This document shows, piece by piece, positions 19,812 through 61,430 of a DNA stretch of 64,000 nt. Below the pieces are notes generated by a model. The model ran no database searches. It saw nothing but the letters and a program-made list of their open reading frames with translations, and was not told the DNA's origin. The stretch is from Centipeda flueggei ATCC 43531 (GTDB taxonomy: Bacteria > Bacillota > Negativicutes > Selenomonadales > Selenomonadaceae): contig NZ_GG694006.1 of the NCBI RefSeq assembly GCF_000160695.1, positions 871,803 to 935,802 of the forward strand, read 5' to 3'. How positions within the stretch are numbered: the stretch's first letter is position 1; each line of letters begins with the position of its first letter. The position numbers were made by a program, and so were the translations under genes.

Positions 19812-20581
19812 AAGTAGCAGCAAGCGACTATGATGGAACACTCCTGCGCGGCGGCAAAATCGACGCCGAGACGAAGGAGGGCATCGCCCGCTGGCGTGCG
19901 GCGGGACATAAATTCGGCGTCGTCTCGGGACGCGACTACGGGATGCTCGTCCCGCAGCTGCGCGCCTACGGCGTTGGATTCGACTACACGGTCTGCAACA
20001 ACGGCGGCATCATCCGCGGCACAGACGACAATGTACGGTTTCAGGCGGAGATCGCACCGCGTGCGCTGACGGCAATCGCCGCCGAGCCGACGGCGCAGAA
20101 ATCGTTCCACTTCGCCTTCTCGGCGGCAGAGACGACCTACCTCTGCCACCATTCCGAGGGCTCGTGGATCGAGCGCGAGGCAAAGGAGTGGGACTTCCCC
20201 ATCACCTACATTGAGGAATCCGACATCGCGGGGCTGACGAAGATCCATCAGTTCTCGCTTGGCTTTCCGGAGCCGGAGCAGTCCAATGCGTGCGCAGAGG
20301 TACTGAATGCGAAGCTCGGCGACCTCATCCATGCCTTTCCGAACGCGTGCAGCCTCGACATCACGCCCGCCGGCATCGGCAAGGACGAGGGCATCCGTAC
20401 CCTCCTCCGCGTCATGGGCTGGGATGATGCGGAGATCTACGCCATCGGTGATGAGACGAATGACCTGCCCATGCTGAAGGCATTTGACGGGTTTTCACTG
20501 ACTACGGCGCGCCCCGCGATTCAGGAACAGGCGCGCGCGGTATTCCCGAGCGTCGGTGCGATGCTCGATCATTTTTGCTGA
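19808..20581 (+). CDS. HAD-IIB phosphatase within the alpha-glucoside operon
   Basis: The 257-residue Cof-like HAD protein has SDYDGTLL (motif I), VSGRDY (motif II), GIGKDEGI (Lys region) and IGDETNDLPML (motif IV). Its ATG overlaps the alpha-glucosidase stop (ATGA) behind GGAGG, so the two are translationally coupled. The genomic position suggests a sugar-phosphate phosphatase acting on the PTS product or an overflow sugar phosphate, comparable in role to the maltose 6'-phosphate phosphatase of Enterococcus, though not shown to be the same family. The substrate is inferred from context only. Confidence 0.8.
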   Translation: MKVAASDYDGTLLRGGKIDAETKEGIARWRAAGHKFGVVSGRDYGMLVPQLRAYGVGFDYTVCNNGGIIRGTDDNVRFQAEIAPRALTAIAAEPTAQKSFHFAFSAAETTYLCHHSEGSWIEREAKEWDFPITYIEESDIAGLTKIHQFSLGFPEPEQSNACAEVLNAKLGDLIHAFPNACSLDITPAGIGKDEGIRTLLRVMGWDDAEIYAIGDETNDLPMLKAFDGFSLTTARPAIQEQARAVFPSVGAMLDHFC

Positions 20582-20744
20582 GGGAATCGCTGATAAAATG
20601 AAGTCCGTCGGATTAGTGCAGATTTTTTGTCCTGTCAAGGAGACAAACCGGACGCATAGCAGAGGCTATGTGGAGGATTTGTCGACACAGGCAGGGCGAA
20701 AAAGATGGGCTAAGACGGCGGTGCTGAATTTATCAGTGCTTCCC
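20582..20744 (+). mobile_element. MITE-like element, copy A (163 bp)
   Basis: The element begins GGGAATCGCTGATAAA and ends TTTATCAGTGCTTCCC, a terminal inverted repeat matching at 14 of 16 positions. Its interior aligns with a second copy at 61266-61430 in opposite window orientation, sharing blocks such as GCAGATTTTTTG, ACCGGACGCA and GTGCTGAAT. It has no transposase. It abuts the HAD gene stop and ends 17 bases before the hexokinase start. A short ORF-like stretch inside should not be annotated as protein. Confidence 0.75.
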
Positions 20745-20761
20745 TAAGACAGGGGGAAATC

Positions 20762-22054
20762 ATGGGACTGGATCGTAAGAAATTTAAGGAAATCAAAGCC
20801 GCCTTCACCTTGAGCGACGACACGCTGCACCGCATCGCCGATGATTTTCGCGCCGAGATGCACGCAGGGCTTGCGCACAAAAATGGGGCAAGCCTGCGGA
20901 TGCTCCGCACGTTCGCGGGGCTGCCGACGGGCAGGGAGACCGGCACATTCCTCGCGCTCGACTTCGGTGGGACGAACGTCCGTGCCCTCCGCATCCGTCT
21001 CGACGGCAGCGGAAAGTATAAGGTCGAAAGCAAGGTCGCCAAGCCGCTCACCCTTCCCGGCGTCTACGACTACGTCTGCGCGGATGCAACGGCGGAGGAG
21101 ATGTTCGACTTCCTCGCCGAGATCATCGACGAGGCAATCGAGGGCGATCACGAGACCAAGTATCTGCTCGGCCACACCTTCTCCTTCCCCTCGGAGCAGA
21201 CGAATCTCTGCAACGCGCGCCTAATCACATGGACGAAGGAGTTCGCCACGCAGGGCGTCGAGGGCAAGGTGGTGAACGATCTCCTCGAAGATGCACTCAT
21301 GCGGCGCGGCATGAAGAACGTCGTGCCCGTCGCCGTCATCAACGACACGGTTGCCGTGCTCCTCGCGGCGGCGTATAAGCGCGAGCACACCTACATCGGC
21401 TCGATCTACGCCACAGGGCAGAACACCTGCTACTTCGAGAACTTCGCGGACGGCAGCGAGAAGCCAATGGTCGTCAACATGGAGTCGGGCGGCTTCAACC
21501 GCCTCCCCTTCTCGAAATACGATGATGCCATCGACGCCTGTTCCGAACAGCCCGGTGCACAGCGGCTTGAAAAGATGGTATCGGGACGCTACCTCGGGAT
21601 GCTCTATGGCACGGCACTCGCCGATCTCCTCGGTAAGGAGGGAGCATCGTATCCGTTCACGAGCATCGAGCTCTCTGCCATCGTGGCAGACGCCTTCCTC
21701 GACCGCCATGCCGCAGGCGCGATCATCGAGTCCAAGACGGGCATGACCTTTTCCGCCGCCGACCGTGCACTCATGCAGGATCTCGCGGGGACGGTGATCC
21801 AGCGCTCCGCGCACATCGTCGCCGCGACCTACGCGGGCATCATCCGTCACCGCGCGGGTGAGACAAAGGCAGAGAACCAGTTCATCGCCGTGGACGGCTC
21901 AGTCTATGAAAAGGTGCCCCTCGTCGCGCACCATCTGCGCGGCGCACTCGATAAGCTCCTTCTCGACGAGGCGGTCAACATCCAGATTATCCTCGAAAAC
22001 GCCGGCTCTGCCCTCGGCGCAGCACTCGCCGCCGCCATGACAGAGCAGAACTGA
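20762..22054 (+). CDS. Hexokinase of the eukaryotic (HK) type
   Basis: The 430-residue protein matches the two-domain eukaryotic hexokinase family, not the usual bacterial Glk or ROK kinases. It has the phosphate-1 motif LALDFGGTNVRAL (about 63-75), the sugar-binding TFSFPSEQT, INDTVAVLL with the catalytic Asp, and a C-terminal adenosine-binding region ENAGSALGAAL. It is close in length to a single eukaryotic hexokinase unit (about 450). It would phosphorylate the free glucose released by the alpha-glucosidase. The RBS AGGGGG lies just beyond MITE copy A, so the element separates this gene from the rest of the operon. A strong terminator follows. Confidence 0.85.
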   Translation: MGLDRKKFKEIKAAFTLSDDTLHRIADDFRAEMHAGLAHKNGASLRMLRTFAGLPTGRETGTFLALDFGGTNVRALRIRLDGSGKYKVESKVAKPLTLPGVYDYVCADATAEEMFDFLAEIIDEAIEGDHETKYLLGHTFSFPSEQTNLCNARLITWTKEFATQGVEGKVVNDLLEDALMRRGMKNVVPVAVINDTVAVLLAAAYKREHTYIGSIYATGQNTCYFENFADGSEKPMVVNMESGGFNRLPFSKYDDAIDACSEQPGAQRLEKMVSGRYLGMLYGTALADLLGKEGASYPFTSIELSAIVADAFLDRHAAGAIIESKTGMTFSAADRALMQDLAGTVIQRSAHIVAATYAGIIRHRAGETKAENQFIAVDGSVYEKVPLVAHHLRGALDKLLLDEAVNIQIILENAGSALGAALAAAMTEQN

Positions 22055-34051: not shown

Positions 34052-35548
34052 TTACTTCTGCATCGAGCCCGTTGCGAGGAAGCGCTGATGGAAGGACAGC
34101 GCCTCGTCCAGCAGATGCGGTGTCTGTGCACCCTTCGTTGCGGCAAGGGCGCGCTCGTAGTAGTCGAGCAGGAGCGGACGGAAGTCCGGGTGTGCGCAGT
34201 GGTTGATGATCTCAAGGGCACGCTCACGCGGGCACTTGCCGCGCAGGTCGGCAACGCCCTGCTCCGTAATGACGACGTCCACATCGTGTGCGCTGTGGTC
34301 GACGTGCGAACAGAACGGAACGATGGACGAGATCTTGCCGCCCTTTGCCTCGGACTGCGTATAGAAGATCGTGAGGTAGGCGTTGCGTGCGAAGTCGCCG
34401 CTACCGCCGATGCCGTTCATCATCTTCGAGCCCGTGACGTGCGTGGAGTTGACGTTGCCGTAGATGTCGACCTCGATCGCCGTGTTCATCGCAATGACGC
34501 CGAGACGGCGGACGACCTCTGGGTTGTTCGAGATCTCCTGCGGACGGAGCATCATGATCTTCTTGTACTTGTCGATGTCCTTGTAGAAGCGCTGGAGACC
34601 CTCAGGCGACGGCGAGAATGCCGTGCCGGACGCAAATTTCAGCTTGCCCGCATCGGCGAGGTCGAACATGCCGTCCTGGATGACCTCAGTGTAGACCTCA
34701 AGATCGGTGAAGTCGGAGTTCACAAAGCCCGCGATAACGGCATTCGCCACGTTGCCGACGCCCGACTGCAGCGGAAGCAGCCCCTTGGGCATACGCCCCT
34801 CGGCGATTTCCTTCTTGAGAAAGTCGACCGTGAACGCACCCATTTTGCGTGCAATATCATCGACCGGTGCAAGAGCGCGGGTCTTGTCCGTGATGTCACA
34901 GGGGACGATGTATTTGATTTTCTCATGCGGACATGGAATGAACGTCGTGCCGATGCGGTCGCCCGCCTTTGTGATGGGGATGGGCAGACGATTCGGCGGA
35001 TCGAGCGGGATATAGATGTCATGCATTCCGACGAGTTCCATCGGCTGGCTCGTGTTCACCTCGACGATGACCACATCCGCACTCTGAACGAACGACGGGG
35101 TATTGCCGACCGAGGTGGAAGGGATGATGCCCTCGTCTGTGATGGCGACCGCCTCCACGAGGGCAACATCGATCTTGCCGAGGAAGCCTTCGCGCGACTG
35201 CTGTGCCACCTCGGAGAGGTGCATGTCGATATAGTTGATCTTGCCGGAGTTGATTGCGCTGCGCAGTGCCGTGTTCGTCTGGTACGGGAGGCGCTGCTTG
35301 ATCCCCTCTGCCTCTGCGAGTGCACCGTCGAGCTCAGGGCCCGTCGAAGCCCCCGTCCAGATATTTACTTTGAACGGATTCTTCTTCATTCGTTCAGCGA
35401 TGGCAAGCGGCACTGCCTTCGGATAGCCGGACGGAGTGAAGCCGCTCGCGCCGATGGTCATACCGTCGGCAAAGTACTCCGCTGCCGTCTCCGCGCTCAC
35501 AATTCGATCCGTCAGGGACTTCGGTACGCGATCGGAAATATCGATCAT
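34052..35548 (-). CDS. Succinyl/propionyl-CoA:acyl CoA-transferase (acetyl-CoA hydrolase family)
   Basis: The 498-residue family I CoA-transferase has GASGFTPSGYPKAVP near the N-terminus, SVGNTPSFVQSADVVIVEVN in the middle, and GIGGSGDF plus TEQGVADLRGK toward the end. Members include succinate CoA-transferase Cat1/AarC and acetyl-CoA hydrolase. At the head of a methylmalonyl-CoA operon it probably transfers CoA from propionyl-CoA or acetyl-CoA to succinate, closing the cycle. The start is the ATG with GGAGG 7 bases ahead. It overlaps the stop of a small upstream ORF. Confidence 0.88.
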   Translation of the reverse strand: MIDISDRVPKSLTDRIVSAETAAEYFADGMTIGASGFTPSGYPKAVPLAIAERMKKNPFKVNIWTGASTGPELDGALAEAEGIKQRLPYQTNTALRSAINSGKINYIDMHLSEVAQQSREGFLGKIDVALVEAVAITDEGIIPSTSVGNTPSFVQSADVVIVEVNTSQPMELVGMHDIYIPLDPPNRLPIPITKAGDRIGTTFIPCPHEKIKYIVPCDITDKTRALAPVDDIARKMGAFTVDFLKKEIAEGRMPKGLLPLQSGVGNVANAVIAGFVNSDFTDLEVYTEVIQDGMFDLADAGKLKFASGTAFSPSPEGLQRFYKDIDKYKKIMMLRPQEISNNPEVVRRLGVIAMNTAIEVDIYGNVNSTHVTGSKMMNGIGGSGDFARNAYLTIFYTQSEAKGGKISSIVPFCSHVDHSAHDVDVVITEQGVADLRGKCPRERALEIINHCAHPDFRPLLLDYYERALAATKGAQTPHLLDEALSFHQRFLATGSMQK

Positions 35549-35739
35549 AGAATAACCTCCCTCAGATACAGCGGACAGTAATACATGCCGCCGTCGCCCA
35601 TGAATGCTCTCCTGACGCAGTCGGCGCATAATTCCGACAGGAATTTTGAATCCTCCCACTCCTCTTGCAAAATCTTCTGCAACAGCGATGGTATAAGGCA
35701 CTCGGAATAACTGTGGATTATCATATCCGCCTGCGTCAA
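35545..35739 (-). CDS. Small Cys-containing ORF coupled to the CoA-transferase gene
   Basis: This frame of up to 64 codons (TTG start at 35739, or ATG at 35724) ends with TGA overlapping the CoA-transferase ATG as ATGA. The end contains LCADCVRRAF and GMYYCPLYLREVIL, giving a CxxC pair and a further Cys. The arrangement suggests translational coupling and a leader peptide or small regulatory protein. The CxxC and C-terminal pattern faintly recall ComFB-like small proteins, but I do not recognise it with confidence. It may be a chance ORF in a leader of about 185 bases. Confidence 0.35.
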   Translation of the reverse strand: MTQADMIIHSYSECLIPSLLQKILQEEWEDSKFLSELCADCVRRAFMGDGGMYYCPLYLREVIL

Positions 35740-35769
35740 TTATATCTTTCCTAAGAATATCACGAAAAA

Positions 35770-35802
35770 AAAATGCCGTCAAGATTACATTGACGGCATT
35801 TT
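35770..35802 (-). terminator. Terminator after rex
   Basis: AAAATGCCGTCA pairs with TGACGGCATTTT, followed by a T-run on the minus strand. It separates rex from the propionate operon. Confidence 0.85.
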
Positions 35803-61203: not shown

Positions 61204-61265
61204 AGTCGATGTCCCCCTCCAAGAAATTCACTCGTCTTTAATATCGGATATTTTTACTATACTCT

Positions 61266-61430
61266 TAAGGAAGCGCTGATACATTCAGCACGATCGTCTT
61301 GACCTGTTTTTTTCGCCCGTTTTTCTTCGCAGAGCCTCCACACAGCCCTTGCTGTGCGTCCGGTCCGCTGCCTCAATCGGGCAAAAAATCTGCGCCAATC
61401 TGAGAAACTGTTTGATCCGTGATCCCTTAA
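61266..61430 (-). mobile_element. MITE-like element, copy B (about 165 bp)
   Basis: Read on the minus strand it runs from TTAAGGGATCACGGATCAAA to GTATCAGCGCTTCCTTAA and aligns over its length with copy A at 20582-20744. The ends are imperfect inverted repeats (GGAAGCGCTGATAC against GGGATCACGGATCA). It lies between flgF and flgG in the same orientation relative to transcription as copy A. No transposase is encoded. Confidence 0.75.

Follow-up and report, generated by a model that had tools for sequence, protein, structure and literature searches.

The junction between a HAD phosphatase gene and a hexokinase gene in the window (the whole stretch of 64,000 nucleotides from Centipeda flueggei ATCC 43531 that was analysed) is occupied by a short repeat, which raises the question of what kind of element this is and whether its interior, as well as its ends, has been conserved. 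An initial annotation had described a MITE-like element with inverted ends matching at 14 of 16 positions, starting at the phosphatase stop codon and possibly inserted into the operon, and had paired it with a second copy at 61266-61430. The features of the two copies, with their coordinates in the window, are as follows.

20583-20743, plus strand (sense): copy A of the element, with ends GGAATC..GCTTCC, from BLAST, profile and covariance-model matches.
20583-20597, plus strand: left terminal inverted repeat of copy A, GGAATCGCTGATAAA.
20729-20743, minus strand: right terminal inverted repeat of copy A, TTTATCAGTGCTTCC, reverse complement GGAAGCACTGATAAA.
20578-20582, no strand: left flank of copy A, CTGAG, an imperfect duplication that overlaps the phosphatase stop codon TGA at 20579-20581.
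20744-20748, no strand: right flank of copy A, CTAAG, the other side of the imperfect duplication, from the sequence.
20637-20641, plus strand: 5' side of a conserved internal loop of copy A, AAGGA, conserved in alignments A1 and A3.
20653-20672, plus strand: apical hairpin of the copy A fold, a stem with compensatory changes in A1 and A3.
20684-20689, plus strand: 3' side of the same internal loop, GACACA (GACGCA in other genera), from the alignments.
61269-61426, minus strand (sense): copy B of the element, from sequence, alignment and model match.
61265-61268, no strand: TTAA, one side of the exact 4-bp duplication of copy B, from the sequence.
61427-61430, no strand: TTAA, the other side of that duplication, from the sequence.

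Copy A starts one base past the phosphatase stop codon, and the hexokinase ATG (20762) lies 18 bases past its end; Hydrolase_3 (HAD phosphatase) and Hexokinase_1/2 domains were found in the neighbouring genes, as they had been named. The inverted ends are present, but they are complementary at 13 of 15 positions over 15 bp rather than at 14 of 16. The second copy exists and is related to the first, with an exact extent of 61269-61426, and sits between two flagellar rod/hook-type genes. An end motif, GGAAGCGCTGATGGA, that looks like a chance occurrence is found at about 34078 (34079-34092), inside a predicted gene on the minus strand (34052-35782); a model search detected no element around it.

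The element is abundant in its own genome, a 2.16-Mb draft in 8 contigs. BLAST with copy A returned at least 40 matches of 75–100% identity there, copy B being absent among the matches listed. A covariance model built from 43 copies gave 113 rows, many elements matching on both strands because they are near-palindromic, and removal of overlaps left 92 distinct places, of which 68 are at least 140 bp long, 11 measure 100–139 bp and 13 are shorter. This is far beyond chance. The 43 copies form alignment A1 (43 rows of the 68 full-length places, namely 49 profile hits minus four fragments and two duplicates), throughout which the 15-bp inverted ends, GGAATCRCTGATAAA and, from the other side, GGAAGCACTGATAAA, are conserved; with up to one mismatch the end pattern occurs 113 + 120 times, as compared with 14 + 5 times for a reversed control. 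Gene positions were taken from a home-made codon model, trained on the window, where it yields a sensible gene map. By this model none of the 43 copies lies inside a gene, and by our own count a neighbour's stop codon falls within 3 nt of a copy end in 14 of 43, which is expected since the target contains TAA or TAG. The arms of the copies (e.g., L023, L015, L009) vary as matched blocks, such as GACAAA/TTTGTC, GCAAA/TTTGC and GGAAAA/TTTTCC, in a mosaic of arm variants. Derivatives without the core of the element form size classes, eight of 103–110 bp, in most of which the junction is similar, and eleven of 47–65 bp; one place (L472) represents the reverse case, a core without ends.

Evidence for transposition was obtained from the flanks. 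With the ends fixed at GGAA/TTCC, the adjoining 4 bp were compared with 500 shuffles, leaving out copies whose ends could not be placed (42 of 43 were kept in the own genome and 15 of 20 in G045). Exactly matching flanks are found in 16 of 42 copies of the own genome (shuffled mean 2.9, maximum 8), 16 of 20 in G011 (2.2, 7), 9 of 20 in G007 (1.9, 6) and 8 of 19 in G003 (2.2, 6), so that target-site duplications, which the initial annotation had proposed to look for, exceed the shuffled expectation in four genomes of the genus; in all four the commonest flanks are of the TTAA, CTAA, TTAG and CTAG kind. The test is weak in G045 (8 of 15 exact, shuffled maximum 8) and in G025 (4 of 20, maximum 5). 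Among the core-less derivatives of 47–110 bp, exact flanks were seen in 5 of 19 (shuffled mean 1.1, maximum 5). We do not take this as proof that ends can move without the core; the evidence is weak because an element that lost its core only after inserting would carry the same flanks.

An empty site is available in G003, the nearest relative compared, in which the phosphatase stop and the hexokinase start are 14 bp apart versus 180 bp in the window, and the flanks of the junction are 99.5% and 93% identical to those in the window. The element did insert between the two genes, at the stop codon, which the initial annotation had considered possible; the comparison of filled and empty sites covers one junction. 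The hexokinase ribosome-binding site was seemingly altered by the insertion, reading AAAGGAGGAAAATC-ATG in G003, without the element, and GACAGGGGGAAATC-ATG in the window (20744-20761). Ten other genomes of the genus have 106–243 bp at the same junction with other sequence inside, BLAST of copy A against eleven junction loci of the genus produced matches of 10–17 bp only, and in two of the 14 genus genomes the junction gene had no match. In four genomes (G008, G004, G001 and G005; loci L450, L452, L458 and L459) the junction contains a G+C-rich, palindromic, repeat-like sequence, GGCGCCCCTTCCACCGC..GGTCCCCCTCCCCCGT.. The presence of other repeat-like sequence at this junction in further genomes of the genus indicates that the spot collects repeats.

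A full insertion sequence with the same ends was also sought, as had been proposed. The own genome contains no match to the transposase domain PF01609, and no full IS with these ends was found there; PF01609 matches occur in 6 of the 14 genus genomes, and at six loci of same-genus genomes the ends of the element, differing from the left end of copy A by 1–2 positions, flank a DDE transposase and lie 1235–1247 bp (~1.24 kb) apart. The transposase of G011 scores 309 bits against the NCBIfam IS5-family model NF033581 (cut-off 140), and two of the six loci have a stop inside the transposase gene. The 4-bp flanks of the six loci are all of the TTAA, CTAA, TTAG or TCAA kind and are identical on both sides in one of them. 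IS5 proper uses YTAR targets. The likeness to the IS5 family and its derived MITEs consequently comprises common ends, YTAR-like 4-bp targets and an IS5-family transposase in the partner; unlike in that family, only ~15 bp per end are held in common, no likeness being seen beyond them, so that the interior of the MITE does not come from the IS seen, and, unlike in IS5-derived MITEs, a related core occurs elsewhere between other ends. Across the genus, copy number does not correspond to the presence of a PF01609 transposase: G001, with six PF01609 matches, has a single MITE match, and G002, G003 and G004 have 121–133 MITE rows each and no PF01609 match. The MITE-like character first proposed is upheld by the many copies, the 15-bp inverted ends, the 4-bp flank duplications, the empty site in G003 and the full IS5-family element that has the same ends in same-genus genomes. 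The element is a non-autonomous IS5-type transposon (MITE), for which ends, targets and empty site are observed; its transposition in trans is inferred, and would involve an IS5-family DDE transposase that recognizes the ~15-bp ends and inserts the element at YTAR-like 4-bp targets, duplicating them.

It remains to consider the interior. The concern that it might be mis-annotated as a small gene was fair, since a 63-amino-acid frame is open in copy A, yet this is not a gene: only 8 of 43 copies keep the frame open throughout (the other five frames are open in 1–6 of 43), the copy lengths fall in all three phases, and the ORF has no Pfam match. That the element encodes a small protein can be dismissed for practical purposes.

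The predicted RNA fold of copy A has −89 kcal/mol (z −10.1) for the sense strand and −49 kcal/mol (z −4.7) for the antisense strand. The AAGGA loop is unpaired in this fold, except for one isolated pair. The sense fold of copy B, computed with its flanks, reaches −61.1 kcal/mol (z −3.8), 1 of 200 shuffles being as good; on the modelling evidence, copy B is a more decayed copy than copy A. Such a hairpin could be no more than a by-product of long inverted repeats in an ordinary palindromic MITE, without selection on the fold and with likeness between lineages due to horizontal spread, and stable hairpin transcripts have indeed been described, in those parts of the sources that were accessible, as general for bacterial MITEs (PMC10969869, PMC3049150, PMC2229807). 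What this explanation does not predict is covariation above that of controls, conserved sequence in internal loops, a core common to elements with unlike ends, or an asymmetry between strands, and all of these were encountered.

For covariation, 24 sequences from 13 genomes, 11 genera and 4 families were picked by hand (alignment A3), leaving out decayed copies such as L102, L142 and L160; one row ("G051orG046_151") was assigned to G027 by the order of loci. Between genera, representatives share ~39–72% identity. RNAalifold predicted 48 pairs on A3, of which 45 are changed on both sides in some sequence, and the covariation score is 0.475, compared with 0.199 in shuffled alignments, none of 500 of which scored as high, and no more than 0.137 when partners are slid. 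Deriving the structure from the same alignment favours it over the slid versions, and the relatedness of rows favours it over the shuffles.

Of 300 genomes of the class, 101 contain a match to a model built from A3; by our own count these cover 17 families and 37 of 97 genera. When 299 genomes were sampled from the phylum, 9 had a match, of which five do not belong to the class. Some of the matched elements have quite different ends, as in G015 (GGGCGTGTTG with TA on both sides), G370 (GGACCTGGC), G504 (GGAACTGTT and CCCTGTGTC) and G344 (AGGCTCATG). Several share a variant core, here called type 2, consisting of CAAGGCGGAGGA and GACGACAACGCAG on either side of the apical hairpin. An exact scan for this pair in one genome for each of 84,980 species recovered at least 120 stretches; the matches listed include Lachnospiraceae, Oscillospiraceae, Ruminococcus, Peptococcaceae and other Clostridia, one Succiniclasticum, and Actinomycetota, e.g., Streptomyces, Nocardioides, Rhodococcus, Gordonia and Frankia. 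Ends could be found for 84 of at least 121 pattern matches, mostly 150–179 bp apart and with many different end sequences; the others lie near contig ends or have no 11-mer inverted repeat. Type 1 and type 2 are treated as one putative family on the strength of the model match and of shared loop motifs in corresponding positions of the hairpin, without a tree. Alignment A4 comprises 36 type-2-like elements and two sequences of type 1, and draws on 33 of the 51 dissimilar pattern hits and five further elements; its covariation score is 0.649, whereas shuffling gave 0.192 and sliding no more than 0.173.

Among 72,556 plasmid records, the 66-base type-2 core of a Clostridiaceae genome (L333) matched 19, all of Streptomyces and 15 of them at 80–90% identity; it matched no phage and no E. 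coli record. The type-1 core pattern had no match in viral contigs, and copy A had none in plasmid or in phage records. G015 contains many near-identical copies, as after a recent burst, which speaks for an ordinary palindromic MITE. No facing pair of GGGCGTGTTG ends at the distance of a full IS is present among the 88 places listed for that genome; facing pairs ~164 and 190 bp apart (C2:14817-14980 and C7:89886-90075), whose inner bases differ (GATAA/GAAAA), are probably other subfamilies. The core is also repeated near contig ends in metagenome-assembled genomes (L331, L339, L360, L361, L369), where the hairpin may have led to artefacts of assembly. Three species of one genus have a single syntenic copy in common, which might have pointed to a host non-coding RNA gene at a conserved place; since the flanks are themselves ~96% identical, the shared copy is uninformative in this respect.

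The sense strand is the better-folding one in 42 of 43 own-genome copies, in all 24 A3 sequences, in 119 of 119 copies from six other genomes, and in 14 of 19 core-less derivatives. In most of these comparisons the strand was assigned by a model that already contained the sense structure, and two less biased tests were made for this reason. In the first, the 5' half of each element was aligned to the reverse complement of its 3' half with all mismatches scored alike; this strand-neutral self-alignment, with one row per genome (n = 13), gave 121 G.A against 7 C.T and 66 G.T against 30 A.C mismatches. In the second, elements were located by the exact core pattern, so that the strand is fixed by sequence. 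The sense strand folds better in all 84 core-pattern elements whose ends were found, and in the arms outside the pattern, counted for 51 of 53 dissimilar elements with palindromic arms, G.A outnumbers C.T by 183 to 29 and G.T outnumbers A.C by 226 to 82. A palindrome kept solely as double-stranded DNA should lack such mismatch asymmetry, which argues otherwise: the interior hairpin (~160 nt) is selected as one specific single strand. The interior, invisible to the initial annotation, is a conserved, strand-specific fold found far outside the genus and not bound to one type of end. We therefore consider a by-product hairpin without selection on its fold very unlikely.

Which single strand is selected, RNA or DNA, cannot be read from the asymmetry alone. 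G.T and G.A mismatches make one strand the better one in DNA too, and with DNA parameters the sense strand still folds better in 42 of 43 own-genome copies, so that the preference for RNA over single-stranded DNA is an inference. Use of the hairpin as single-stranded DNA, e.g., in replication-coupled transposition, has to contend with the inverted ends and 4-bp duplications, which are those of a double-strand DDE element, and, more weakly in view of possible deletion in place, with the exact flanks of some core-less derivatives; it seems unlikely, without being negligible. IS200/IS605-type and REP elements are not known to have inverted ends or target duplication, and membership in either group is rejected for our element, which has both. 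The selected form is most likely RNA, arising upon transcription, as inferred in the absence of transcript data.

If it is RNA, it might act in cis for the host, as an RNase III site, a terminator or an operon regulator. In the window both copies are oriented like the operons they lie in, a long hairpin would make a plausible substrate, and RNase III cleavage is known for transcripts of Correia elements, according to the accessible portion of PMC10969869. The orientation of copies at large is at odds with such a role. Of 162 copies, 48 lie in tandem with and 41 against the neighbouring genes, 24 are convergent, 23 divergent and 26 unresolved. The tandem counts are 16 with and 9 against in the own genome and 32 and 32 in six further genomes, amounting to no overall bias in this set, and single genomes lean in opposite directions (4 with and 13 against in G011, 8 and 3 in G015); the gene model, being trained on the window, is less sure in distant genomes. 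A simple scan of 20400-20900 revealed no promoter-like site; its single terminator-like site is no better than chance and falls within the phosphatase gene, so that the element itself shows no terminator signal. Cis-regulation with an orientation preference is accordingly rejected for want of an overall bias, and a cis-acting signal of any of the kinds mentioned appears rather improbable. The lack of an overall preference favours an RNA that acts by itself or is recognized whenever transcribed.

No known RNA family accounts for the fold. Rfam yielded no match in the window at the gathering score, nothing on the elements at six type-1 loci at E up to 1, and nothing on the elements at twelve type-2 loci at the gathering score; the single overlap in copy A, with 7.1 bits, is at chance level, and Rfam families, introns included, are thereby excluded. 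Structured RNAs of this bacterial class are described, as far as the available part of the source goes, as riboswitch candidates upstream of single genes, unlike this element (PMC8632094).

Comparison with described repeats was made without sequence comparison for Correia/NEMIS, BOX, RUP, SPRITE and Nezha. Correia/NEMIS elements of Neisseria, as portrayed in the consulted part of PMC2229807, resemble the element in their size (~105–155 bp), inverted ends, many intergenic copies, stable hairpin transcripts, and full and internally deleted size classes, the latter being matched by the size classes observed here. They have 24-bp ends with TA termini, as opposed to 15-bp ends and 4-bp target duplications in the present case, and membership was rejected on this ground. 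BOX, RUP and SPRITE of Streptococcus pneumoniae and Nezha of cyanobacteria are likewise small interspersed repeats with structured transcripts, some of them thought to be moved by a host IS; the accessible portion of the account mentions no core common to unlike ends (PMC3049150). In IStrons, which join a group I intron to an insertion sequence, transposon ends are also linked to a conserved structured RNA (PMC4227781, available in part). Unlike an IStron, the element is only ~160 nt long, has no transposase gene inside and has no Rfam intron match, which excludes membership, and catalysis has not been demonstrated. No description recognized as this element was found in the literature covered, which excludes most subscription papers and all supplements, and a full-text search with four type-2 core strings returned, among the matches listed, only papers unrelated by title. 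The element belongs to a large set with a common structured core that is apparently undescribed.

On these data, we regard it as probable that the element is, as a whole, an IS5-type MITE with an interior hairpin selected in single-stranded form, most likely as RNA. How the RNA would act is conjectural. The conserved, G.A-rich internal loops of the folded transcript may be recognized by a widely conserved host factor, or the transcript may be self-acting; either way it might lower the cost of insertion or help the element to spread, and the core would be kept while situated between the ends of different transposons. This mechanism is possible, although we would sooner bet against it than for it. 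A broader hypothesis, on which we are close to undecided and which we put forward tentatively, is that MITEs of many transposon families, in Negativicutes, Clostridia and Actinomycetota, carry a structured RNA that has not been described before, with an inherited core, exchangeable ends, and a function of the core that pays for itself, as a ligand of a shared host factor or as a ribozyme. If the core is indeed inherited and the ends are exchangeable, the spread of the core must be earned by something that the core itself does.

MITEs are usually seen as transposon ends with filler in between, whereas here it is the interior that is conserved: compensatory changes preserve its fold on one strand, it occurs in two phyla flanked by ends that differ, and Rfam has no counterpart. 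If the selected form is RNA, it would constitute a new class of selfish or useful RNA present in very many genomes, and what a small transposon gains from carrying a structured RNA would become a testable question.
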